This document shows, in pieces, positions 20,891 to 41,085 of a stretch of DNA of 63,643 nt. The notes beneath the pieces were generated by a model that did no database searches, was not told the DNA's origin, and saw only the letters and a list, made by a program, of their open reading frames with translations. Position numbers and translations under genes: made by a program. The DNA lies in contig JAQXIX010000005.1 of assembly GCA_029008005.1 (NCBI GenBank), forward strand, positions 1 through 63,643. The letters are read 5' to 3'. Source of the stretch: Bacillota bacterium (GTDB taxonomy: Bacteria; Bacillota; Clostridia; Peptostreptococcales; Anaerovoracaceae). Position 1 is the stretch's first letter. The number at the start of each line of letters is the position of its first letter.

Positions 20891-21412
20891 TTATTGTTCA
20901 AACACTATGCCCTTTTTCTTAAGGGCATTTTTTATTTCATCGAATATGCTTTTGCTGGGGCAGCCTATCTGGTGAGTGTGAATACCTCCCGTGAGAATGC
21001 TTATTGGCTGAGAGTTTTTCTGTTCACTTACTCTTTTAATGAAACCGTCCACTTCATATCTGGATGACAGATCCAGTTTTCCCGATAGCGACCCATAAAT
21101 AGCATGCTCAATCGTGACATCTATGACAGTCCCGCCGAAGTCTACTATAGTATACAGCTCCTCGGCGAGTTTTTCGCTGCCGTGAATGCAAGGAATAATT
21201 CCTATGTATCCGAATCTGTTTTCGCCGGTTCCCGTCTCAATCTTATAGCCTCTCGCCGTGGCGATAATCCCGAACCCTGCAGCCCTTAATATTGCAACAT
21301 CTCCAACGATTATCTGCCTGCTTACGCCGAATTCCTCCGCCAGCTGCGAAGCTGTGACAGGCTTTTCTGTACTGTTAAGTATCGAAAGTATTTTCTCACA
21401 TCTTTTATTCAT
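20891..21412 (-). CDS. niaR: Niacin-responsive repressor NiaR (HTH_11 plus 3H domain)
   Basis: Transcription factor of 173 residues. An N-terminal winged helix-turn-helix (about 5-60, VTASQLAEEFGVSRQIIVGDV) is joined to a 3H domain (about 70-170). The 3H histidines are visible in TIEHAIYG and GGIHTHQIGC; in characterised NiaR proteins they bind a metal and nicotinic acid serves as corepressor (family knowledge). It is divergent from an orphan permease gene, and an inverted repeat covering that gene's promoter is a good operator candidate. Its own ribosome binding site is weak (AGGA about 15 bases upstream). Confidence 0.9.
   Translation of the reverse strand: MNKRCEKILSILNSTEKPVTASQLAEEFGVSRQIIVGDVAILRAAGFGIIATARGYKIETGTGENRFGYIGIIPCIHGSEKLAEELYTIVDFGGTVIDVTIEHAIYGSLSGKLDLSSRYEVDGFIKRVSEQKNSQPISILTGGIHTHQIGCPSKSIFDEIKNALKKKGIVFEQ
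20907..20933 (+). terminator. Terminator of the lipoprotein gene, inside niaR
   Basis: Arms ATGCCCTT (20907-20914) and AAGGGCAT (20921-20928) around a 6-base loop, followed by six T. It lies 34 bases after the lipoprotein stop, within the last codons of the convergent niaR. Confidence 0.8.
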
Positions 21413-21518
21413 ATGTTTTTAATTATTTCCTATAAGACATCCCATGTGCTTAAGTGTTCTGATTAACTGACAAACGTAACTCATTGATATTATCATTTTA
21501 CCCTTTTGATTTTCTCAA

Positions 21519-21551
21519 TGTCAAGATGTATATTTGACGTGTGTCTTGACA
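21519..21551. promoter_or_regulatory. Candidate NiaR operator
   Basis: Perfect inverted repeat TGTCAAGA (21519-21526) and TCTTGACA (21544-21551), centres 25 bases apart, in the niaR-permease divergent region. The right arm contains the -35 hexamer of the permease promoter. TGTC...GACA-type arms are compatible with published NiaR sites as I remember them, but I could not compare against a motif matrix. Confidence 0.55.
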
Positions 21552-21574
21552 CCTATCAAGTCTTTTGCTACAAT
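21546..21574 (+). promoter_or_regulatory. Promoter of the IIC-like permease gene
   Basis: TTGACA (21546-21551) and TACAAT (21569-21574) separated by 17 bases, a strong sigma-A match. The gene starts 42 bases further on. Confidence 0.8.
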
Positions 21575-21616
21575 CGTTGAGGATTAAAATCAGTAGCATT
21601 ACGAAAGGCGCATATA

Positions 21617-22672
21617 ATGAAAGAATTTTTTAAGAGAAAAGATATAGAAATAAGTGTAAACAGATATCTGAAGGACGCAATGTCTGCAATGGCTCTCGGA
21701 CTGTTCGCCACGCTTCTTATGGGAACTATTCTCGATGTTCTCGGCACACAGACGGCGAATCTCTTCGGTGAAAATCCTATTTCATCATTTCTTGTTGAAA
21801 TAGGAGGTACGGCTAAAGGCTTAATGGGTGCCGGAATCGGCGTCGCTGTAGCATGGGGACTCAAAGCACCTCCTCTCGTACTTTTTTCAAGTGCCGTAAC
21901 CGGCATGATGGGAGCTACTTTTATAGGTTTCGGAATAGATTTTGCCGGAGGTCCGGCAGGTGCTTTCATTGCAGCTGCCATCGGTGCCGAATTCGGTAAA
22001 ATGATTTCAAAGGAAACACCTGTTGATATTCTTGTTACTCCTGCCACCACAATCATCATGGGCGGTATCGGCGCGAAAATCTTCGGCCCTGTCATAGGAT
22101 GGTGTATGATCAAGGTCGGTGAGTTTATTATGATGGCGACAGAGCTTCAGCCTTTCCTTTTCGGAATCATTGTATCTGTAGTTGTCGGGCTTGTTCTCAC
22201 TGCCCCCGTATCAAGTGCCGCATTATGTGTAATGTTTGATCTGACTGGACTTGCTGCCGGCGCTGCCACAATCGGCTGCTGTGCTCAGATGGTAGGCTTC
22301 GCTGTAGCAAGTTACAGAGAAAACGGAATCGGCGGTCTCGTCGCTCAGGGAATCGGAACTTCAATGCTTCAGGTTTCCAACATAATTAAGAATCCTTGGA
22401 TTCTAGTTCCCGCAACTCTTGCCGGTGCAATTGTCGGTCCGATTTCGACCTGCCTTTTTAAGATGACAAACATTGCCGTCGGCGCAGGCATGGGAACTTG
22501 CGGATTCGTAGGTCAGATCGGAACATTTACTGCCATGGGATTCTCCTTCGATGTTCTGTGGAAGGTTATTCTGCTCCACATAGTTCTCCCGGGTGTACTG
22601 GCATTTCTGATTGATAAGGGAATGAGAAAACTCGGTCTCATCAAGGATGGCGATTATAAGCTGGATCTGTAA
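21617..22672 (+). CDS. Orphan PTS EIIC-2-like membrane permease, candidate niacin-regulated transporter
   Basis: Hydrophobic protein of 351 residues with about nine to ten membrane segments and many Gly-Ala-rich helices. It resembles the PTS_EIIC_2 family (annotated as sugar PTS IIC), with the N-terminal pattern SVNRYLKDAMSAMALGLFATLLMG. No IIA, IIB, HPr or sugar enzyme gene is nearby, so it is unlikely to work as a normal PTS. Its gene is divergent from niaR, and a TGTCAAGA inverted repeat overlaps the -35 of its promoter. Together this suggests a NiaR-repressed uptake protein for nicotinate, nicotinamide or a related compound (inference). GAAAGG lies upstream of the ATG. Confidence 0.7.
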   Translation: MKEFFKRKDIEISVNRYLKDAMSAMALGLFATLLMGTILDVLGTQTANLFGENPISSFLVEIGGTAKGLMGAGIGVAVAWGLKAPPLVLFSSAVTGMMGATFIGFGIDFAGGPAGAFIAAAIGAEFGKMISKETPVDILVTPATTIIMGGIGAKIFGPVIGWCMIKVGEFIMMATELQPFLFGIIVSVVVGLVLTAPVSSAALCVMFDLTGLAAGAATIGCCAQMVGFAVASYRENGIGGLVAQGIGTSMLQVSNIIKNPWILVPATLAGAIVGPISTCLFKMTNIAVGAGMGTCGFVGQIGTFTAMGFSFDVLWKVILLHIVLPGVLAFLIDKGMRKLGLIKDGDYKLDL

Positions 22673-24836: not shown

Positions 24837-26780
24837 TTATTTATTAACATACTTAACAATTGTACGCAGTACTTCCCTGCTGTCAAGGGGTTTGGAAAGA
24901 TGCGCATTCATTCCTGCATCTTTTGTAGCCTGCCTGTCTTCTTCGAAGGCATTGGCAGTCATGGCGATAATCGGAATTGTGGAAGCATCCTCGCTATCCA
25001 TCATCCTTATGACCTTCGCCGCCTCTATTCCGTTCATGACCGGCATCATTACATCCATCAGAATCACATCAAATGTCCCTGCCGGATTTCCCGCGAAAAT
25101 ATCTGCCGCCTGTCTGCCGTCAAAGGCTTTTGTAACTACTGCACCGGCGTCTTCAAGAAGCAGCTGTGCAATCTCCATGTTCAGCTCGTTATCTTCAACA
25201 AGCAAAATCATCAAATTTTCTATTGATACTTCGCTGTCATCAGCTTCATCGACCCTTATTTCGGATTCCTCCGCAATTTTGAAAGGAATAGTCACCACAA
25301 ATGTTGTTCCCACGCCTTCTTCACTGTCAATTTCAACAGTACCGTTCATCCTGTCTACGAGAGTCTTGACTATTGCCATTCCGAGACCGGTTCCCTGATA
25401 AGTGCTTCTGGCATCACTGTGTTCCTGAGAAAAAGGCTCGAAAATATGTTCCAGGAACTCGCTGTTCATACCGATTCCCGTATCCGAAACGGTACAGGAA
25501 TATTCAACTGTATCATCATCAACTGATTCACAAGTTATGCTGCACGATATGCTTCCTCCCGGTTTATTGTACTTAATTGCATTGGAAAAGATGTTCAGGA
25601 ATATCTTTCTCAGGTGCAGAGGACTGCCGTATACATACGGTGCTTCAATCTTTTCTCTGCAGTCCCCGTGATTAAACTTAATCCCCCGCTCCTCTGCTTC
25701 AATTGCCGTTATTGTAATAATCTCTTCCGCCAGCACATTCATATCGAACACTTCCTGTGCCAGTTCCACATCGCCGTTTTCAAGCTTAGACAGCTGAAGA
25801 ATGTCGTTCAGGAGTGAATTCAGATGACTTGCCGCAACTTTTATCTTGCCTCTGTTTTCTTCAATGAGCTCCTTGTTATCCGGGTGTCTTTCATCCATTT
25901 CAAGAAGTCCCATTATTCCGTTAAGCGGTGTCCTTATATCATGAGACATCTTCGAAAGGAAATCGGTCTTCGCCCTGTTTGCTGTTTCCGCAGCATGGAG
26001 AGCTTTTTCCATATCTCTGCGAGCCTGTTCCAGTTCGAAATTTGTTTTCGCAGCTTTCTCATATGCTTCGTCAAGCTCGTTTCTCTGCTGAATTTCCCGC
26101 TTGTTTACCCATCTCATCCACATGAATGCCATTATTGTGAGAAGAGATGTGATTATTATCGCGACGAGTGCTGCGATTACTGCTTTTTTATTGTTTTTTT
26201 CTATTTCACTGTAGGTTGATTCCATATCCAGTTCCATACAAAGGGCGCCAACAACTTTATTGGGTTTTTCCTTACTGTACACAGGATAACATGCGGCATA
26301 GATATGTCCCCACGAAGTGTCGATTATTTTATCGGTATAGCTTTTTTCACCTTTTAGTGCGTCCTCGATATAAGGAATCATTTCATCCTCTATTACCGTC
26401 CCCGGACACGCGAAATCATCAACACTCATGTCGAGTCCATCTATGAGATACACAAGATTGCCTTCCTCATTTCGTCCTGCAGTATAAAGGTATCTCAAGT
26501 TTTTCATTTCTCTTATACTGTTCAGATTTTCCTGAAAAGCAATATACCTTTCGGATTCCATATCTTCCTCTGCTGTTATTGATGTGAAATCATCATCATC
26601 AAAAGCGCCGGACACAGAGTCATTGACGGAATCCATTCTAAGTGTATTTCTCTCTATTGCGCTTTCAAGTGTGTCCTTGCTGTAATTTGTCTGGAGAATC
26701 CATGTGTAACATACAATCTGCAGAGTCATAAACAGCACTGCGATAACAATCGGACTTTTCCCGGTAATTCTACCTTTCAA
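24837..26780 (-). CDS. Membrane-bound hybrid sensor histidine kinase
   Basis: 647 residues. One membrane helix (about 10-28) and a second (about 206-228) flank an extracytoplasmic sensor of about 175 residues. A coiled coil leads into HisKA with the phospho-accepting His in [12 protein letters not shown], a HATPase_c domain with DTGIGMNSEFL and GTGLGMAIVK, and a C-terminal receiver (about 525-645) with LLVEDNELN and the phospho-Asp in VILMDVMMP. The TTG start at 26780 is kept because AGGTG lies 7 bases before it and the signal helix begins at once. No dedicated output regulator is adjacent. The ligand is unknown. Confidence 0.9.
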   Translation of the reverse strand: MKGRITGKSPIVIAVLFMTLQIVCYTWILQTNYSKDTLESAIERNTLRMDSVNDSVSGAFDDDDFTSITAEEDMESERYIAFQENLNSIREMKNLRYLYTAGRNEEGNLVYLIDGLDMSVDDFACPGTVIEDEMIPYIEDALKGEKSYTDKIIDTSWGHIYAACYPVYSKEKPNKVVGALCMELDMESTYSEIEKNNKKAVIAALVAIIITSLLTIMAFMWMRWVNKREIQQRNELDEAYEKAAKTNFELEQARRDMEKALHAAETANRAKTDFLSKMSHDIRTPLNGIMGLLEMDERHPDNKELIEENRGKIKVAASHLNSLLNDILQLSKLENGDVELAQEVFDMNVLAEEIITITAIEAEERGIKFNHGDCREKIEAPYVYGSPLHLRKIFLNIFSNAIKYNKPGGSISCSITCESVDDDTVEYSCTVSDTGIGMNSEFLEHIFEPFSQEHSDARSTYQGTGLGMAIVKTLVDRMNGTVEIDSEEGVGTTFVVTIPFKIAEESEIRVDEADDSEVSIENLMILLVEDNELNMEIAQLLLEDAGAVVTKAFDGRQAADIFAGNPAGTFDVILMDVMMPVMNGIEAAKVIRMMDSEDASTIPIIAMTANAFEEDRQATKDAGMNAHLSKPLDSREVLRTIVKYVNK

Positions 26781-26790
26781 TTATATACAC

Positions 26791-29700
26791 CTACTTTGTC
26801 AGTATTTCCGTAAGAGCCGCCATCAGCTCATCCATTCTTATTGGTTTGGCAATATGCCGGTTCATTCCGGCTCTGTAAGCATTTTTCTTATCTTCATCAA
26901 AAGCATTTGCGGTCATTGCCACAATGGTAACGTTCGCCTTCTCGGGATCAGAAAATTCCCTGATTGTCTGTGTGGCTTTATATCCGTCCATATTCGGCAT
27001 CTGTATGTCCATAAGAATCATGTCATAATATCCCGCTTCCGCTTTTTCCATCATATCAACGCATATTATGCCATCTTCCGCATGCTCAACGACAAAACCC
27101 GCTTCTTCAAGAATTGTAATTGCTATTTCGGCATTAAGCTCATTATCCTCGGCAAGTAATATTCTCTTTCCCTTAAACAGATTCCTGTCAAAGGCTTCAG
27201 TTCTGCCGGTGACCGTATTCTTATCCTCCTCAAGAGAAATCCTGTGAGGAATCGTCACTGTTATTTTAGTTCCTTTGCCTGCTTTACTTTCCACCTCAAT
27301 CGTTCCCTGCATAAGGTCGACAAGTTTTTTTACGATAGGCATTCCAAGACCGGTACCTTTAATCTTACTGTCTGTACTTGAACGTTCTCTCGTAAACTCT
27401 TCAAACAGATGTGGCAGGAATTCTTCCGACATGCCGATGCCCGTATCTTCAATTACTGTTCTGTATATCGCATATCCCGGTCTGTCTGACGGAATCTCCG
27501 TCAGTCTCATAGTAACTCTTCCTCCTGAAGGTGTATATTTTAGCGCATTGCTTAAAATATTAAGAAATATTTCCCGGAGTTTCGTCTCATCGCATATAAC
27601 ATTCGGATGCTCAACCTCTAAGGTTCTTGTAAACTCTATTCCCTTTTCCTTCATCTGTGCATCAAAGAGAGAGAATAGTGTTTCGATAAACGTATATGCG
27701 TTCCAGTTACTTTCGTCGATCGTAGTCTTGCCGCTTTCTATTCTTGCCATCTCAAGAACATTGTTAATAAGAGAAAGCAGGAAATCATTTGAAGTCTGTA
27801 TCTTCTTAATATATGATTTTGCCAGCTCTCTGTCATCGAGATTTCTCTCGAGCAGCTCTGTAAATCCTATGATTGCATTCATCGGAGTCCGTATGTCATG
27901 AGACATGTTAAACAGGAATGCCGATTTAGCTGCACTTGAAGCATTTGCAATTTCCAGCTGTGCCTTTGTGTCAGCTTTCTCGTGAGCCTCTGTAACATCT
28001 CGTCCGAGAATATTAATAATTTTCTCACCGTTTTCATCATATCCTGCGAACACATTAATCTCATGCCATTCTATCTTTTTATTGTCAAACACAGGGAACT
28101 CCTCTGTTCCCAGATATCCGGACTTAACATTGTGATTCCTGTAGTTCTCAATGGACAAAAGCTTTTTCCCAGCCTGAATATACTTAGTATCTACTGCTCT
28201 TAAAAACCTTCTGTACATATAATTGTATTCATCGGTTGACTTCATAGCTTCAACCGTACTATCCAGGCCTGTACCTGTAATCAATGTATATTTCCCGGTA
28301 TTGATATTTACAGTCATGTTATAACTGTAAAGCATTTTCGTAACACCTGAAAGCAGCTGGTCTCTTGCTGTAGACGCACGAAGTTCCCTTTCTTTAATTT
28401 CCTGACGTTGGTGTGCTTCCGTAATGTCGCGTCCCAGAATATTCGCGATAGGTTCTCCGTTTTCATTTGTTCCGATAAACAGATTTACTTCATGCCACTC
28501 ATTTGTTTCGCCCATAATCATCCGGTATGATACAGTACCGATGTAGCCCGGTTCCTTCATTTTATTTTTCAGTGTCTGAATGCCCATGAGACTTTCAAAA
28601 GCTTCTTTGTCTTCTTCTGCCACAAGGTTTATCAGCATGGCATGAATAAGGACATAGTCATCACTTTGCTGCATAAACTCCAGCACATTATCCATTCCTG
28701 TGCCTGTGATTAAGGTATATTTCCATGTCTCGAGATTTACAGTCAGATTGTAACTGTAGAGCATTTTCGTAACACCTGAAAGCAGCTGGTCACGAGCCAT
28801 GGCTGCTCTCTGCTGTATTTCACGCTGCTCCTGTCGTTTATGAACATCTGTAATATCTCTGCCGAGGATGTTGGCAACAGGATCACCCTTCTCATCTACG
28901 CTGATGAAAACATTTACCTCATGCCATTCCTCTCCCTCATCTGAGAAAGCTCCGTACTCGAGACTGCCAATGAATCCGTTGGCATTTGTCCTCGCTCTGA
29001 GCGAATCCAGACTTGTAAGTGCTGCAAACTGCGATATATAATCAGGATTCAGATATGATAACTTCCTGTTGTATGCCGCTTCATAATCATCTGTCGACTT
29101 GAATATCTCCACGAATTTAGACATACCTGTTCCGATAATCATACCGTACTTGCCTGTTCTCAGGTTAAGTGTCAAGTTATAGCTGTAAAGCATTTTTGTC
29201 AGCTCGGACAGTATCTGGTTTTTAGCGGCTACAGCGCGAAGCTCGTTCTCACTTTTTTTCTGTGCATTATGCGCCTCAGTTATGTCGCGACCGAGAATGT
29301 TGGCTACTCGTCTGCCGTCCTCTTCAGTATCGACAAATACATTTATTTCATGCCATTCGTATTCAGTATCTCCGGGGTAAAGTACGGGATATTCATAAGT
29401 CCCTCTGAAACCGTTTTCCTGTGAGCCGCCGCTTGCACTGCTGAAATCCAAAAGCTCCCTGAAGTGTTTAATATATGCCGGATGAATTATTGTATCGTGG
29501 AATTCGTCCAGTTCTCTCTGATAATTGAATTTCTTGTATTCTTCAACTGTGCGCTCCATACCTGTACCGGTAATAAGAGAATAGCCTTCTGTCTCCAGAT
29601 CTATCGTCAGATTGTAACTGTACATAATCTGAGTCAGCTGGGACAGAACTCTGTCCTTTCTCGATGAACTCTTTCTGAGTTCTTTTCCGGCCTTCCAGAT

Positions 29701-30195
29701 AGAATAGTTCTTATCTATGAAGAAACTCATCATTTCCTTCAGCAGTTCATAAGATCCGAACATTTCTTTTTCGGTTTTCCTGTGAACTCTTGAAAGAACA
29801 TCTTTCACTTTTTCTTCTTCGATTCCCAGTTCAGTTGTTTTCGCTATTATTTCTTCATCTGTCTGATCTTCCGACAAAGCCTGTCCTGCCAAAACCCGTC
29901 CCAGAATCTGTCCGTCCGGCAAAACAATAGGAACCGAAAAATCACAAAAACCGATAGGACATACATATATGCCCTCACGATATGTTTTCCAGACTGAAGT
30001 GCAGTATTCGTTTCCCTTACTGTTATCGTGAATCATCTGGCAGAACTCCGTCATACCGAAGGATTCGGAAGTCCTGTTACCGTCGTTGTCGACAATAACG
30101 GCATACATGCCGCTGCTCCTGGACCAGTTGTCAATCAGTCTGTACAGCTGATCCATATCGCAGAATTCCTGCAAGCTCAAATTAATATTTTCCAA
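26791..30195 (-). CDS. PocR-domain hybrid histidine kinase with four tandem PAS-like modules
   Basis: Cytoplasmic protein of 1134 residues with no membrane segment. A PocR sensory domain (about 5-175) has the Cys-bearing signature YCTSVWKTYREG...VCPIGFCD; PocR domains are thought to bind small organic ligands such as diols. Four copies of a module of about 143 residues follow, starting near residues 186, 331, 475 and 618. Each has the pattern LYSYNLT-NL-T-KY-LITGTGM, then WHE(V/I)NVF and NILGRDIT-AH. HisKA ([13 protein letters not shown]), HATPase_c (DTGIGMSEEFL, GTGLGMPIVK) and one receiver (LLAEDNELN, ILMDIQMP) complete it. The TTG start at 30195 has a strong AAAGGAG 7 bases upstream. It lies 12 bases after the broken kinase and 10 before the next. 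Confidence 0.9.
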   Translation of the reverse strand: MENINLSLQEFCDMDQLYRLIDNWSRSSGMYAVIVDNDGNRTSESFGMTEFCQMIHDNSKGNEYCTSVWKTYREGIYVCPIGFCDFSVPIVLPDGQILGRVLAGQALSEDQTDEEIIAKTTELGIEEEKVKDVLSRVHRKTEKEMFGSYELLKEMMSFFIDKNYSIWKAGKELRKSSSRKDRVLSQLTQIMYSYNLTIDLETEGYSLITGTGMERTVEEYKKFNYQRELDEFHDTIIHPAYIKHFRELLDFSSASGGSQENGFRGTYEYPVLYPGDTEYEWHEINVFVDTEEDGRRVANILGRDITEAHNAQKKSENELRAVAAKNQILSELTKMLYSYNLTLNLRTGKYGMIIGTGMSKFVEIFKSTDDYEAAYNRKLSYLNPDYISQFAALTSLDSLRARTNANGFIGSLEYGAFSDEGEEWHEVNVFISVDEKGDPVANILGRDITDVHKRQEQREIQQRAAMARDQLLSGVTKMLYSYNLTVNLETWKYTLITGTGMDNVLEFMQQSDDYVLIHAMLINLVAEEDKEAFESLMGIQTLKNKMKEPGYIGTVSYRMIMGETNEWHEVNLFIGTNENGEPIANILGRDITEAHQRQEIKERELRASTARDQLLSGVTKMLYSYNMTVNINTGKYTLITGTGLDSTVEAMKSTDEYNYMYRRFLRAVDTKYIQAGKKLLSIENYRNHNVKSGYLGTEEFPVFDNKKIEWHEINVFAGYDENGEKIINILGRDVTEAHEKADTKAQLEIANASSAAKSAFLFNMSHDIRTPMNAIIGFTELLERNLDDRELAKSYIKKIQTSNDFLLSLINNVLEMARIESGKTTIDESNWNAYTFIETLFSLFDAQMKEKGIEFTRTLEVEHPNVICDETKLREIFLNILSNALKYTPSGGRVTMRLTEIPSDRPGYAIYRTVIEDTGIGMSEEFLPHLFEEFTRERSSTDSKIKGTGLGMPIVKKLVDLMQGTIEVESKAGKGTKITVTIPHRISLEEDKNTVTGRTEAFDRNLFKGKRILLAEDNELNAEIAITILEEAGFVVEHAEDGIICVDMMEKAEAGYYDMILMDIQMPNMDGYKATQTIREFSDPEKANVTIVAMTANAFDEDKKNAYRAGMNRHIAKPIRMDELMAALTEILTK

Positions 30196-30207
30196 TATTC
30201 TTCTCCT

Positions 30208-31386
30208 TTAGCTGAGCCAACTGTTCAGTGTCTTTATTAAAACCTTAAGTTCCAGCGGTTTCGCTATGTGTTCATTCATCCCCACTGTTTTGGCTGCCTG
30301 AACATCTTCTGCAAAGGCATTTGCCGTCATGGCAATAATAGGCACTTTCGCGCAATACCCCCGATTCATGGCACGAATAGCCCTTACTGCATCATAGCCG
30401 TTCATTTTAGGCATCTGAATGTCCATAAAGACGAGATCGTAATATCCATCCTCACTCGATGCAATTCTGTCAACGGCTTCCGCTCCGTTCCATACATGAT
30501 CTACCGTTATTCCTGTTATTTTCAGTATTTCCTTTGTTATTTCCGCATTCAGCTCATTATCTTCCGCCAGGAGAACCCGGTAGTCCGAGAAGTCCAGTGT
30601 ATTCAGCGACTCAATCGGAGCCGAATCAACCTCTTCGCTGTCTTTGTTCAAAAGCCTTTCAAAAGTTTTTTCGAGTCTTGACCGGAAAAGAGGCTTGCTG
30701 ATAAATGCATTTGCACCGGCATTTCTGGCTTCCTGCTCAATATCTGACCAGTCATAGGCTGAAATTATGATAATAGGCACATCATTGCCAACCGCTCTTC
30801 GAATAGCTTTTGTTGTCGCAATGCCGTCCATATCAGGCATCTTCCAGTCAATTATGCAGGCGAAATAATCTTCATTGCGTTCATGACGGGAGATCGTTTT
30901 TTTCACGGCATCATATCCGTTTGTTACGCCTTCGGCATTCATCCCGAGATCACACAACATGCATACACATGACTCGAGACTCAAATGGTCATCATCTGCT
31001 ACAAGAACATTAAGATCAACGTATTCCCTGTAATCCTGAGAAGCTTCCTCCTGCAGTTTCAGATAAATCGTGACTGTTATGCGGGAGCCTATCCCCTGTA
31101 CACTCTCTACATTGATGTCTCCTCCCATCATCCTTACGATGTTCTGGCTTATGGTCATTCCCAGACCTGTTCCCTGAATCTTCTTCATGCCTTCATTCTG
31201 TTCTCTGGCAAAAGGCTCGAAGATGTTTTCTATAAACTCCGGACTCATTCCCATTCCGTTATCTTCAAAGACAAATTCGAAACATCCTACTTTTGGCTGA
31301 CTGCATTCTCTTTCGGATATGGTCAGGCGGATTTTTCCTCCGTCAGGTGTGTATTTAACCGCATTGCCCATTAAGTTTGTAAACAC
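30208..31386 (-). CDS. C-terminal part of a hybrid kinase split by an in-frame amber codon
   Basis: 392 residues in the same frame as the upstream 889-residue part, separated only by TAG (31390-31392) and AAG. It starts inside the HATPase N-box (VFTNLMGNAVKYTPDGG), so alone it lacks the beginning of the ATP-binding domain and the phospho-accepting His. The rest of HATPase_c (DNGMGMS, GTGLGM) and two receivers follow: LVADDDHLS with Asp in IIDWKMPDMDG, and LLAEDNELN with Asp in VFMDIQMPKMNG. The apparent GTG start has no proper ribosome binding site. It is either a pseudogene remnant, a product of read-through, or a double-receiver protein made by reinitiation. Confidence 0.8.
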   Translation of the reverse strand: MFTNLMGNAVKYTPDGGKIRLTISERECSQPKVGCFEFVFEDNGMGMSPEFIENIFEPFAREQNEGMKKIQGTGLGMTISQNIVRMMGGDINVESVQGIGSRITVTIYLKLQEEASQDYREYVDLNVLVADDDHLSLESCVCMLCDLGMNAEGVTNGYDAVKKTISRHERNEDYFACIIDWKMPDMDGIATTKAIRRAVGNDVPIIIISAYDWSDIEQEARNAGANAFISKPLFRSRLEKTFERLLNKDSEEVDSAPIESLNTLDFSDYRVLLAEDNELNAEITKEILKITGITVDHVWNGAEAVDRIASSEDGYYDLVFMDIQMPKMNGYDAVRAIRAMNRGYCAKVPIIAMTANAFAEDVQAAKTVGMNEHIAKPLELKVLIKTLNSWLS

Positions 31387-31389
31387 CTT

Positions 31390-34059
31390 CTAGATACGAA
31401 GGCTGTCTCCGATTACGGCCTCATGGGTCACTCCGGAAATATTTACCGAAAGCTCGTGATTATGCTCCGCAATCTGCGAACTCGTCATAGTGAGCAGATT
31501 ATCAATCAATTCTGAAAGATTAAATTCCTCTTCTATAAGCTCAACCTTTCCTGACTCTATTTTACTCATATCAAGCACTTCATTAATAAGGCTCAGCAAG
31601 TGCCTGCTGGCTTGCGTGATTTTTTTCAGACTGTCCTGAACACGCTCCCTGTCGTCAATATGAGCTGCTGCGATAGCCGTCATTCCGATTATTCCGTTCA
31701 TCGGTGTTCGGATATCGTGAGACATGTTTGACAGAAATTCCGTCTTTGCCTTACTGGCGCTTTCCGCTGCATCATACGCAGCCTGGAGGGCCATTTCCTG
31801 CTGACGTTCCTTCCTGATTATATCATCGATATCCCTTGTTCCTATTACGACAACGTTATTTCCGTTCGATTCGTGAACGTAAGCCACTCTCACCTGGATA
31901 TAGTGATACTCTCCGTCTATGAGAACTTCAACATTTACCGAATAATCCTCGTGTCTTGAACGTATATACTCCAGGGACATTTTCTCGCGATACTCTTCGC
32001 GACTGCCTTCCGAAACCTTCTCCCGGGCATATTCCTCCATAACATCCGACCATTTATTCTCATTGCGTGAGAGAAATTCATCCATAGTTGAAGCGTGTCT
32101 GTTTTCCGTCCGGAAGAACTGAACATTGTCATTTTCGGGATTTACAAGAAGAACGGAAAAATACTCGGATCCAAGGCCTTCGATAATCTCGTGCTGAATT
32201 TCCATGTCTCTTGTCTGCTTAAGCTGTCTCCTCGCTTCTTCGTCAACATCACGCATTCCCAGAATGAAGGTTACCTTCCCATCTTTATCGACAGTCTTAA
32301 CTGTGTTCATTTCAAAGTATGAAATAACCTCGTTCATGTTACGTCTGTACCCGAGTTTATACACGCCTATATCCGGTACTTTTTCCATCAGAACCGAGAG
32401 ACCCGTTGACTGTCTGATTCTTTCCCGGTCCTCCGGAACGATAAATTTATCAATGTATATAGAGAGAATCTTTTCGTAATCACCGAGTTCCATTAACTTA
32501 CCAAGCATTTCCGGATTCATTCCAATGCCGTCCGTACGGTAGAGTGTCATGGCTCCCGTCTGTGCATCGATTTTAAAAAGGCTGCAGTATTCCTGACTCA
32601 GTGCATCTGAAACAACAGATTCTTCTTTTAGAGCTCTATATACTTTTTCCAGCTCCGCAAGAGCAGTTTCTACCTTTTTCTGTGCCGCCAGCTCTTTTTT
32701 CTTTTCTTCATCTATGTTTTTGAAACCGATAATAAAAATATCGCTGTCAGGATTTTGCTTTATCAACTGACACTGGTAATACTCAACAATTCCTTCCCTG
32801 TCAACCCGATAGTTAAAGTAGTAGTCTATTCTGTCTTTCAGGAGACTGTTTGCCTTTGCCGCTTCCCTCACGCAGTCAAAAAGCTCGCGGTCTTCCTCCA
32901 GAACATCATTTTCAATGTACGTTTTTATATTATCTTCATAATTTCCCGAAGCAAATTTCTGCCCGTACCTTTCGGTCATAGACGCGCCCATATTGTAGCA
33001 GACAGCTTCATGTGTTTTTATGTTTACGGAGTATACATTGGCATATGTAAGAGACAGAGCCCTGATAAGGCTGTCTTGTGCATCTATTTCTTCTTTCTGA
33101 GCCAGAAGTGTTGTCAGGCTCTCATTAGTTTCGTGAAGTTCTCTGTTGTAATCCAGTTCTCCCGATCTGGCTGCATTTACCGATTGAGTTGTAAACAGAA
33201 CGCATGTCAGCCTTCCGTCTTCTCCTCTTTCGCTTTCAATAAAAGAACACTGTCTCCAGATTACGGAGTTTTCTTCTTCCTTAAATAGAGAACTCTGATA
33301 CTGTTCATATATAATCCGTGTATTCTTATCCATTCGTTCGTCAAGTGTTGACAGCTTAACGAACTCCAGCAAAGCCTCAGTATATTCGGGCAGAACCATT
33401 TCGCGACAGAAATAATCAAGTCTTTCCTGAGCATCACCTGTCACACCTATATGTTCGTTGACTTCATCGACCGATGTTATCTCCGTAAACTGCCCCGTTA
33501 CCAGATCGATGTAATACACTGAAGTATATATAGAACTCAGGGAACTGATTATCCTGATTCTGTCAGGTATCAGACCGCTGCTTTCCTTATCGCCTTCTGA
33601 TGATTGTATTTCTCTGTAACATGCCGAAGCCATTACGGAAAGAACCATCATGTCATCTGTATTCTTCTTAGGATTATCCAACCCCAGAAATCCGGTTATT
33701 TCTCCATCTGTCGTCAGCGGAGCCGCAACAGCGGATCCGGTTCCCGGAACTGAAGGTAAAAACAGTCCCCCCTGCTTTTCAAATAAATCAAGCAAAGGCT
33801 TCAGTTCATTCAGCGATATACTCTGCCGACACCCCATTCCGGAGACGGTGCCTTCGCTGCACCACTCCCATGTATTGTTGAAGCATGCATTTCCCTTGTC
33901 TTTCTCAAAAATGTATGCTCTATCCGCATCATAGTATTGTCCCAAATCCCCCAGAATCTGTTTTACTGCCTGTCCTTTATTTTGTATGAGAAGACAATTA
34001 TTCATCATGTCCTTTATTGCCTTTTCCTGCATGGACATCCTGCATCTTTGTTCATTCAT
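31390..34059 (-). CDS. N-terminal part of a GAF/PAS hybrid kinase, interrupted by amber stop
   Basis: 889 residues. A GAF domain (about 15-150) is followed by four PAS-like stretches, the later three ending in the [16 protein letters not shown] and GTRDIDD patterns. HisKA comes next with the phospho-accepting His in [12 protein letters not shown], and then the first third of HATPase_c. The frame stops at TAG (31390-31392) in the N-box GDSLRI-stop-KVFTNLM, where relatives have Gln; a single C-to-T change of CAG would explain it. The downstream frame continues without a shift. No membrane helices. AGAGG precedes the ATG at 34059. TAG is used as a normal stop by terC, by the PocR kinase and by the ACT gene here, so recoding is not indicated. 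Confidence 0.82.
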
Positions 34060-39131: not shown

Positions 39132-39872
39132 TTACAGATTATCAAAAGCTTCTCTCAGAACTTTTCCTATTGAATCATTTATTACAAGTGAGGCTCTTTT
39201 ATCAAAAGATGTCTCACTTTTATTTATGAGTACAAGTTTGTCTCCTCCGAAATAATTTACAAAGCCCGCTGCAGGATATACAACAAGTGAGGTTCCTCCG
39301 ATAATAAGCGTATCTGCCTTTCTTATGGCATCGACTGCACCGGAAATCTGTTTATCGTCAAGCATTTCTTCATAAAGGACTACATCCGGCTTGACCGTTC
39401 CTCCGCATTTGCTGCATTTCGGTATCATTTCTTCGCAGTTTCCCTCATCCATTATATAATCCAGGTCGTAATATTCCCCGCAGTCCATACAGTAATTTCT
39501 GAGCACAGAACCATGCAGCTCATAAACCGTACTGCTTCCTGCTTTCTGATGAAGACCGTCAATATTCTGAGTGACAACCGCCTTAAGCTTGCCCATTTTT
39601 TCAAGCTCCGCCAATACCTTGTGTGCATCATTGGGCTGAGCATCCCTGTAAATCAGATTGTTTTTGTAATAATCATAAAACATCTCTGTCTTTGCAATGA
39701 AAAAACTGTGCGAGAGCATTTCCTCAGGTGACATTCCGTAATTCTGCTGCGCATTGTAAAGTCCCTGTGCACTTCTGAAATCAGGTATATTTGATTCCGT
39801 TGAAACGCCGGCGCCTCCGAAAAACACTATATTATTGCTGCTTCTCAATATTTCAGTTAATTCTTCATACAT
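39132..39872 (-). CDS. NAD-dependent protein deacylase, Sir2 family
   Basis: Sirtuin of 246 residues, the bacterial CobB/SrtN size. NAD-binding motifs GAGVSTESNIPDFR (about 20-33) and TQNIDGLHQKAG (about 108-119) are present, as is the catalytic His in ELHGS (about 128). Four Cys of the zinc site lie in CMDCG and CSKCGG. It removes acyl groups from lysines using NAD (family role). It is the last gene of the long minus-strand run and abuts the convergent regulator gene with no gap. Confidence 0.95.
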   Translation of the reverse strand: MYEELTEILRSSNNIVFFGGAGVSTESNIPDFRSAQGLYNAQQNYGMSPEEMLSHSFFIAKTEMFYDYYKNNLIYRDAQPNDAHKVLAELEKMGKLKAVVTQNIDGLHQKAGSSTVYELHGSVLRNYCMDCGEYYDLDYIMDEGNCEEMIPKCSKCGGTVKPDVVLYEEMLDDKQISGAVDAIRKADTLIIGGTSLVVYPAAGFVNYFGGDKLVLINKSETSFDKRASLVINDSIGKVLREAFDNL

Positions 39873-39873
39873 A

Positions 39874-41085
39874 TCAGTTACCTCCCTGATGTTTCTTTAC
39901 TTTATCAACCGCTGCAATTATTATTACCGCTCCCGCTGCCGTTGCTGCAGTAGAGCAGATAAGAAGCGCTCCGGCACCTGCATTGTCGAGAATAATTCCG
40001 CCCAGCAGGCTGGCAAATATCGTCGTGACGGTAACCATCGTCGTAAACAGTGCCTGCCCTTTAACAGCTTCTCCTCTGCTCATAACCTCATCTGTGAAAT
40101 GCACCATTGACGGCAGGAAAAGAGCAAAGGACACCAGCTGAAATATATGGGCGAAATACAGCAGCCACACCGAACCTGCAACACAGCACATTGCGATTTT
40201 TACTGTGAATCCCACCGCTGCAACCTTAAGCAGAAAACTGCAGGAAAATCGTTTTTTTATCTGATTGAACAAAACCATCGTAGGAATTTCCAGAAATGCC
40301 ATTACTGCCAGAATCCGGCCCATGTCTTCTGTCGTTCCACCGACATTGTCAACAATCTGTGCCATATAATTGTTCAGAATCGCATTGCTGAAATACAGCC
40401 CCGCAACTCCTATATTTACTACCATGAACATCTTGTTGCGTCTTGCAAAGTCCAAAAGATTAATGTTTTCTTTTTCTTTCCCGGCTGCTTCTGACACCGA
40501 GTTTTCGGATTTTGCCTTTCTGAAGTGATATCCGGTAAATACAAGGCTTACCAGCAGACACAGACACACGATTTCACCTGTTACGGGCATTACCATTACG
40601 CCGAATTTATCTACCAGAGTTCCAAGGACAGCCACGAGCACAGAGTACGCCAGAGAGCCTACGCTTCTGGCTATTCCGAAGTTTATACTCACTCCGCTTT
40701 CTTCAAGCCTGAAGGACAGAGAGTTAAAGAGCGGCTGCAGCACTGTGTGCCATGATATGAGAAGTACAAATACAACACACAGTCCCGGAGACTTCCCGGA
40801 AAACACAAACATCCCGACAGTAAAAATCATCATCATCACTGTCATCATCTCTGTTATTCCCAGAACTCCTGTCCTTTTGGACCGGTCTGCCAGATCCGCT
40901 ATTATCGGCTGCATTACAACTGCCAGTACATTAGCGACCGCCAGTGTAATTCCTATCTGAGAATTGCTGAAACCTTTATCGAGCATAAACACCGAAGCGA
41001 AGCTGGATATAATTCCGTATATCATCCAGTATGCTCCGAATATACACCCGTATTCGATATTTAAAATTCTCTCCGTGTTCTTCAT
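39874..41085 (-). CDS. Major facilitator superfamily transporter
   Basis: 403 residues with about twelve membrane helices. The pattern resembles the MFS_1-like/nucleoside-permease group: an N-terminal YGCIFGAYWMIYGIISSFASVF-like first helix (shown in part) and the loop DLADRSKRTGVLG after helix 2. The substrate is not recognisable. It lies 1 base before sir2 and 6 bases after the zinc-ribbon gene. GAGGAG lies 15 bases before the ATG, a long distance. Confidence 0.82.
   Translation of the reverse strand: MKNTERILNIEYGCIFGAYWMIYGIISSFASVFMLDKGFSNSQIGITLAVANVLAVVMQPIIADLADRSKRTGVLGITEMMTVMMMIFTVGMFVFSGKSPGLCVVFVLLISWHTVLQPLFNSLSFRLEESGVSINFGIARSVGSLAYSVLVAVLGTLVDKFGVMVMPVTGEIVCLCLLVSLVFTGYHFRKAKSENSVSEAAGKEKENINLLDFARRNKMFMVVNIGVAGLYFSNAILNNYMAQIVDNVGGTTEDMGRILAVMAFLEIPTMVLFNQIKKRFSCSFLLKVAAVGFTVKIAMCCVAGSVWLLYFAHIFQLVSFALFLPSMVHFTDEVMSRGEAVKGQALFTTMVTVTTIFASLLGGIILDNAGAGALLICSTAATAAGAVIIIAAVDKVKKHQGGN

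Follow-up and report, generated by a model that had tools for sequence, protein, structure and literature searches.

A PTS_EIIC_2 permease linked to the repressor NiaR, a candidate vitamin B3 importer in Peptostreptococcales

Results

A niaR gene diverges from a lone EIIC-like permease gene

We analyzed contig JAQXIX010000005.1 of GenBank assembly GCA_029008005.1, a stretch of 63,643 nucleotides (hereafter, the window) from a Bacillota bacterium of the Anaerovoracaceae, in which niaR, the gene of the repressor NiaR, is arranged divergently from a gene for a membrane protein resembling the EIIC component of a phosphotransferase system (PTS). The two genes are separated by 204 bp (Table 1), and the source genome amounts to 1.63 Mb in 53 contigs with a completeness of 86%. 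NiaR proteins repress the genes for uptake and salvage of niacin (vitamin B3) when nicotinate is plentiful; the question here is accordingly what the permease carries.

Both the HTH_11 and 3H domains were detected by a Pfam scan in the niaR product (107.4 bits and E 4.6e-31 for 3H), which can be aligned with solved structures of NiaR over residues 3-172 (9ebr and 1j5y) and 7-170 (7cv0). In the alignment to 9ebr and 1j5y, the positions of the metal/niacin ligands, three His and one Glu, are occupied by H77, E85, H145, and H147, as counted by hand from the translation; in the text on Bacillus halodurans NiaR (BhNiaR), the ligand residues are given as His83, Glu91, His150, and His152 (PMC7713382).

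As to the permease, PF13303 (PTS_EIIC_2) covers residues 21-349 with 310.7 bits and is the sole Pfam match, no NCBIfam model matched it, and no second PF13303 protein was found in the source genome. An earlier note, made from the letters of the window, had described niaR as divergent from a lone IIC-like membrane protein with no PTS partner enzymes nearby. This description was confirmed: both genes lie where the note had placed them, and Pfam scans covering 24 of the 48 larger open reading frames (ORFs) of the window revealed no PTS IIA, IIB, HPr, or enzyme I.

Two divergent promoters and a predicted NiaR operator

Five promoter-like sites were found in the intergenic stretch, as compared with 1.5 in its shuffles. 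The earlier note had also proposed that an 8-bp inverted repeat, TGTCAAGA/TCTTGACA, overlapping the -35 box of a near-consensus permease promoter marks the regulatory site. The repeat is indeed present and the promoter is close to consensus, but the limits of the operator had to be redrawn; because each arm of the repeat contains the -35 hexamer of one of two divergent predicted promoters, we set the repeat aside as the operator in favor of a 12-bp palindrome, GTGTCTTGACAC, which fits better.

This palindrome, the only exact GTGTN4ACAC in the 63.6 kb window, agrees with the type I NiaR consensus, TGT-N4-ACA, in the text of PMC7713382, and also with the core of the pneumococcal operator consensus in that of PMC5343564. 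Furthermore, a 34-bp DNA was reported to be bound by B. halodurans NiaR in an electrophoretic mobility shift assay, and better so with niacin (PMC7713382); the core TGTCTTGACA of GTGTCTTGACAC is identical, letter for letter, to a part of that DNA. NiaR on the predicted operator would cover the -35 box of the permease promoter.

Table 1. Features of the niaR-permease locus (positions in the window)
Feature	Position	Strand	Description
niaR	20891..21412	-	173-aa HTH_11 + 3H repressor
Predicted niaR promoter	21495..21524	-	-35 TTGACA (21524-21519), 18 nt, -10 TAAAAT; 11/12 consensus matches
Left arm TGTCAAGA of inverted repeat	21519..21526	.	holds niaR -35 read on minus strand
Predicted NiaR operator GTGTCTTGACAC, type I TGT-N4-ACA	21541..21552	.	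overlaps permease -35; includes right arm TCTTGACA, 21544-21551
Predicted permease promoter	21546..21574	+	-35 TTGACA, 17 nt, -10 TACAAT; 11/12 consensus matches
Ribosome-binding-like GAAAGG	21603..21608	+	8 nt ahead of permease ATG
Permease gene, PF13303, NiaY-like candidate niacin importer	21617..22672	+	351-aa EIIC-fold membrane protein

Permease genes are linked to niaR and nad genes across the order

A survey of the genome context of PTS_EIIC_2 homologues, which had been proposed in advance, was performed on 118 genomes of the order Peptostreptococcales, where a permease lying no more than 6 kb from a 3H/niaR match was called linked; seven PF13303 rows and two 3H rows under the cut-off were dropped before counting, and one of 116 regions was left out for overlapping another. 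PF13303 was found in 95 of these genomes and 3H in 84 (83 over the cut-off), and the permease and niaR tend to occur in the same genomes (odds ratio 14.5, p 4.5e-8). Among 117 PF13303 places over the cut-off, 56 are linked to niaR, which is on the upstream side of the permease in every case (50 co-directional and 6 divergent), and the linked genomes span 37 genera in nine families. All the linked places are among the 93 that score at least 281 bits and none among the other 24. In a tree built from 114 rows, 21 of the low-scoring rows separate as a clade of their own with no linkage, and all linked genes are among the remaining 93; G020, which is counted with the 24 low-scoring places but is a fragment of unsure clade, was excluded from the tree. 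In the fetched flanks of the low-scoring sister clade (L156-L177), niaR or nad genes were seen at none of 23 loci.

Loci of the clade with the higher scores also hold genes for synthesis of nicotinamide adenine dinucleotide (NAD). At 27 of its loci, the permease is accompanied by nad genes, with nadA, nadB, and nadC all present in 21; the order is niaR-nadA-nadB-nadC-permease in 19 of these, and niaR follows nadC in two. The other loci with nad genes read niaR-nadA-permease (five) and, at a contig end, nadB-nadC-permease (one). At many niaR loci, we also noticed a co-directional gene for a protein of ~900-940 aa after the permease (e.g., L083:8116-10890), and the one copy scanned is UPF0182.

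NiaR boxes are enriched upstream of the permease genes

In the order set, a strict form of the operator motif stands upstream of 16 of 115 permeases versus 11 of 885 other ORFs of the same loci (p 1.5e-9). In a second set of named genomes, namely 80 of 592 relatives among the matches listed, of which 76 were usable, the corresponding counts are 16 of 76 and 7 of 773 (p 5e-13); four of the 80 named loci and one order locus (L159) are outside the box counts for want of a permease ORF in the expected orientation. The enrichment is thus in the same direction in the two sets, while kinship of the genomes shrinks both p-values. Within the order set, the strict box is upstream of 16 of 78 permeases in genomes with NiaR versus none of 15 in those without, and NiaR was searched for in the genomes of 36 of the 80 named loci, where 27 were positive and eight of the 27 have the strict box.

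The form TGT-N4-ACA was found upstream of 22 of the 56 niaR-linked permeases. It is present in all eight family members of the clade to which the permease of the window belongs, and the box is present also in all six members of a separate genus clade, where niaR does not adjoin the permease. No box was found at L095, which is linked by niaR, or at L070, which is linked by nad genes only. When promoters were predicted in 13 upstream regions, the box lies on the -35 of the permease in seven (the window, L136, L139, L147, L185, L187, and L194), between the -35 and -10 in three (L153, L154, and L188), and upstream of the predicted -35 in L182; none was seen in L184 and L186. Given this enrichment and conservation upstream of homologues, the predicted operator in the window is more than a chance match.

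A permease with a predicted EIIC fold is retained in genomes with no detected enzyme I

The predicted structure of the permease is a complete EIIC fold of the glucose superfamily with a predicted local distance difference test score (pLDDT) of 94.4. In this model, the permease shares its fold with the glucose-superfamily PTS proteins PtsG, MalT, and ChbC, but it differs from them in having no GITE motif and in residing in a genome with no detected enzyme I or PF02378 sugar IIC. GI(T/S)E is the sugar-binding motif of glucose-superfamily EIIC; the pattern G[ILVMFT][TS]E was found in none of 63 permease rows, and as a control, the motif was found in six of the eight EIIC loci that were read in frame out of 14 fetched. 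A sequence profile of the permease retrieved no PDB chains, and its comparison with the PTS_EIIC loci by hhalign gave a probability of 2%, from a poor profile with eight of the 14 loci read in frame. Among PF13303 homologues, PF02378 is over the cut-off in one and just under it in another.

The source genome, which is 86% complete, gave no match to enzyme I (PF05524) and none to PF02378 at E 1e-10. With the source genome included, 23 of the 56 linked genomes are without detected enzyme I, some of them close relatives with a completeness of 98-100%. The same applies to 36 of the 91 genomes carrying the permease, and the permease and enzyme I show no association (odds ratio 1.4, p 0.51). Where enzyme I is absent from a genome, the protein there cannot work by PTS phosphorylation; with none found in 23 linked genomes, phosphorylation by PTS cannot therefore be the general mechanism. 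Retention of the gene in genomes with no detected enzyme I supports the idea of the earlier note that the permease works without phosphoryl transfer.

Neighboring genes were also scanned, covering, out of 195 loci in total, 20 proteins from ten loci (19 from nine loci without niaR, one from the niaR-bearing L083) and four neighbors at L214. None of the 19 proteins adjoining the permease at loci without niaR belongs to PTS, four have no Pfam match, and a single one is a sugar enzyme, an aldolase; a consistent association of the homologues with genes for sugar catabolism or PTS is thus not seen. On the absence of enzyme I and these neighbors, a function in sugar PTS was set aside. That the permease is an ordinary sugar PTS IIC adjoining niaR by chance is, moreover, hardly credible in view of the enzyme I counts, the lack of the GITE motif in all rows, and the linkage to niaR in 56 of 93 permeases.

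Another possibility is that the protein is not a transporter but acts within the NiaR circuit as a sensor or regulator in the membrane, with a role resembling that of PfoR. Some PF13303 proteins are annotated as regulators, and the single PF13303 copy in the source genome would be compatible with such a role. The complete transport fold predicted with high pLDDT, however, and the presence of the permease next to niaR in 26 genomes that have no NadC and must import vitamin B3 make this explanation highly improbable.

Nicotinate salvage in genomes with the linked permease

The source genome possesses pncB together with a nadB-nadC-niaR2-nadA operon (L004:7009-10728, contig C19), in which the second niaR (niaR2) is 37% identical to the first. 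A degenerate box, TGTCTTGTCA, was noticed upstream of its nadB (L004:10744-10735, minus strand).

In the order as a whole, nicotinate phosphoribosyltransferase is present in 100 of the 118 genomes either as PncB (80 genomes) or as a second type (22), both being found in two. The second type, a protein of ~350 aa, was first inferred from a weak match to NadC; all six proteins examined out of the 22 passed the cut-off of NCBIfam NF006415 (nicotinate phosphoribosyltransferase), and one also matches the solved enzyme of Thermoplasma, 1ytd. The two types are almost mutually exclusive, as if replacing each other, and the second is confined to genomes with niaR (22/22). In terms of linked genomes, PncB is found in 32 of 56, the second type in 20, and both in one, so that 51 have at least either of the two. 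A concern that many genomes with niaR-nadABC-permease have no PncB is resolved for most of them by the second type. Presence of the permease is associated with that of either type (odds ratio 6.1, p 0.001). Furthermore, NadC is lacking in 26 linked genomes, which should hence need external vitamin B3, and 22 of these have nicotinate phosphoribosyltransferase (17 PncB and five the second type).

These distributions bear on the possibility that the permease carries another NAD precursor, namely quinolinate, nicotinamide riboside, or nicotinamide only, and that nicotinate is sensed by NiaR as a proxy. Many permease operons contain nadC, the product of which uses quinolinate, and five linked genomes have neither type of nicotinate phosphoribosyltransferase. 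Quinolinate would, however, be useless in the 26 linked genomes without NadC, most of which have nicotinate phosphoribosyltransferase as above, and the riboside transporter PnuC is nearly absent, being over the cut-off in two of the 118 genomes, which leaves room for some other riboside carrier. We thus regard transport of another precursor as unlikely.

Distant homologues and other genes in the window

Homologues of the permease with 48-54% identity were noticed in Photobacterium, Stenotrophomonas, Neisseria, Myroides, and a metagenome-assembled genome (MAG) of Balneolaceae (L232, L242, L250, L220, and L226). NiaR was not found in the genomes of the first four; either horizontal spread or, for the Balneolaceae MAG, contamination may account for these homologues. 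Elsewhere in the window, a Sir2-family gene is beside an MFS_1_like transporter gene and adjoins that of a sigma-54 activator (39135-41085); Sir2 enzymes release nicotinamide. Three large genes at 24840-34059 encode domains of hybrid histidine kinases and response regulators, with 26794-30195 outside the scan.

Discussion

We consider that the permease is probably a NiaR-repressed importer of niacin, most likely of nicotinate, which would work independently of PTS and leave its substrate unphosphorylated. The niacin transport suggested by the earlier note is supported by the linkage to niaR, the nad genes at 27 loci, and the enrichment of boxes in two sets of genomes, from which we infer repression by NiaR at GTGTCTTGACAC, the direction of transport, and the substrate. 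When niacin is plentiful, niacin-loaded NiaR would bind GTGTCTTGACAC over the -35 box and silence the permease gene; under niacin scarcity, NiaR would release the DNA, and uptake of niacin would rise. A gene repressed by niacin is indeed expected to import rather than export. Using the EIIC fold with no IIA/IIB partners, the permease may let its substrate into the cell unmodified, and nicotinate phosphoribosyltransferase (PncB in the source genome) would then trap it as nicotinate mononucleotide (NaMN). Energy might be supplied by symport with protons or sodium, or the entry might be facilitated and coupled with trapping.

Several observations weigh against niacin import by the permease. In the clade, 37 of 93 permeases are unlinked to niaR and 15 are in genomes without NiaR, and some members may carry something else; besides, relatedness of the genomes makes the survey counts interdependent and the p-values smaller than they should be. 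The strict box was found for only 16 of the 93, TGT-N4-ACA occurs also upstream of nine of the 37 unlinked permeases, and one of nine named genomes without NiaR has the strict box (L229). The operator sequence by itself is weak evidence, given that with two mismatches allowed, the window contains three operator-like matches versus 3.7 expected. As for metabolism, the source genome has the de novo pathway of NAD synthesis, and no box was found upstream of its pncB. No association with the permease was seen for PncB alone (odds ratio 1.3, p 0.64), and the association with salvage thus rests on the second type of phosphoribosyltransferase; in linked genomes, PncB is even less frequent than elsewhere (odds ratio 0.39, p 0.03), its place being taken by the second type, and for the two types together, the odds ratio in linked genomes is 2.7 (p 0.08). 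Neither type was found in five linked genomes (G011, G012, G024, G061, and G106), of which G011 has a split NadC-like match. In the genomes with niaR-nadA-permease (L066, L080, L092, L095, and L114), NadC was not found, leaving quinolinate, the NadA product, with no known use. Finally, the gene for a class I fructose-bisphosphate aldolase, the sole sugar enzyme in the 19 neighbors, adjoins a homologue in Staphylococcus (L240).

We lean slightly toward a wider proposal that a large and widespread branch of PTS_EIIC_2 lies outside the PTS altogether and consists of stand-alone carriers of vitamin B3 that use the EIIC fold without phosphoryl transfer and may serve as the main niacin route of niacin-auxotrophic Clostridia lacking any PTS.

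The idea of a niacin transporter in this family has a likely precedent. NiaP and NiaX are niacin transporters of the major facilitator superfamily and the energy-coupling factor type, respectively, and the permease with PF13303 as its sole Pfam match belongs to a different protein family. Their role in regulons of other Firmicutes is similar, as far as described in PMC5343564. NiaP, NiaX, and NiaY were predicted as NiaR-regulated transporters by Rodionov et al. in 2008, as cited in PMC5343564, PMC7713382, and PMC6593275, and the relevant text of these papers places NiaY in five genomes from Bacilli and Clostridia. NiaY as described there and the permease are alike in predicted regulation by NiaR, occurrence in Bacilli and Clostridia, and being a lone membrane protein; either a NiaR box upstream or linkage to niaR, by which NiaY is recognized, is found for the permease family as well.

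NiaY presumably corresponds to the SEED name "predicted nicotinate-regulated transporter BH3254", and the gene order that we assume for BH3254 would place it at the PF13303 locus of Halalkalibacterium. In Halalkalibacterium ligniniphilum and a second genome of its genus, a thioredoxin gene comes after the PF13303 gene, and genes for DUF84 and M42 peptidase proteins are on its upstream side, separated from it by one or two small genes. In the second genome, TGTCTTGTCA, which nearly matches the box, is found ~80 bp ahead of the permease gene; in H. ligniniphilum, it is located ahead of the small gene that precedes the permease. Neither BH3254 nor its neighbor genes gave a text match in the open-licence literature, and no niacin transporter of the EIIC type was met in the open-licence papers listed, either. 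The comparison, made by gene order alone, is suggestive, and we judge it more probable than not that NiaY and the PF13303 permease family are the same; the idea of a niacin transporter is then probably not new but dates from the prediction in 2008. New in the present analysis are the broad evidence for niaR-nad-permease operons, the retention of the permease without enzyme I, and the fold.

Vitamin B3 transporters are a stated gap; in a survey of gut genomes, NiaP, NiaX, or NiaY is said to be confidently found in only 25% of the B3 auxotrophs (PMC6593275). A family of "sugar permeases" that carries niacin would, if true, help to fill this gap, while it is partly counted already in the figure above if NiaY is the PF13303 permease family. 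Niacin import by the permease, if true, would also put right an automatic annotation as sugar permease across many genomes, and it would demonstrate that the EIIC fold can work without a phosphotransferase system.
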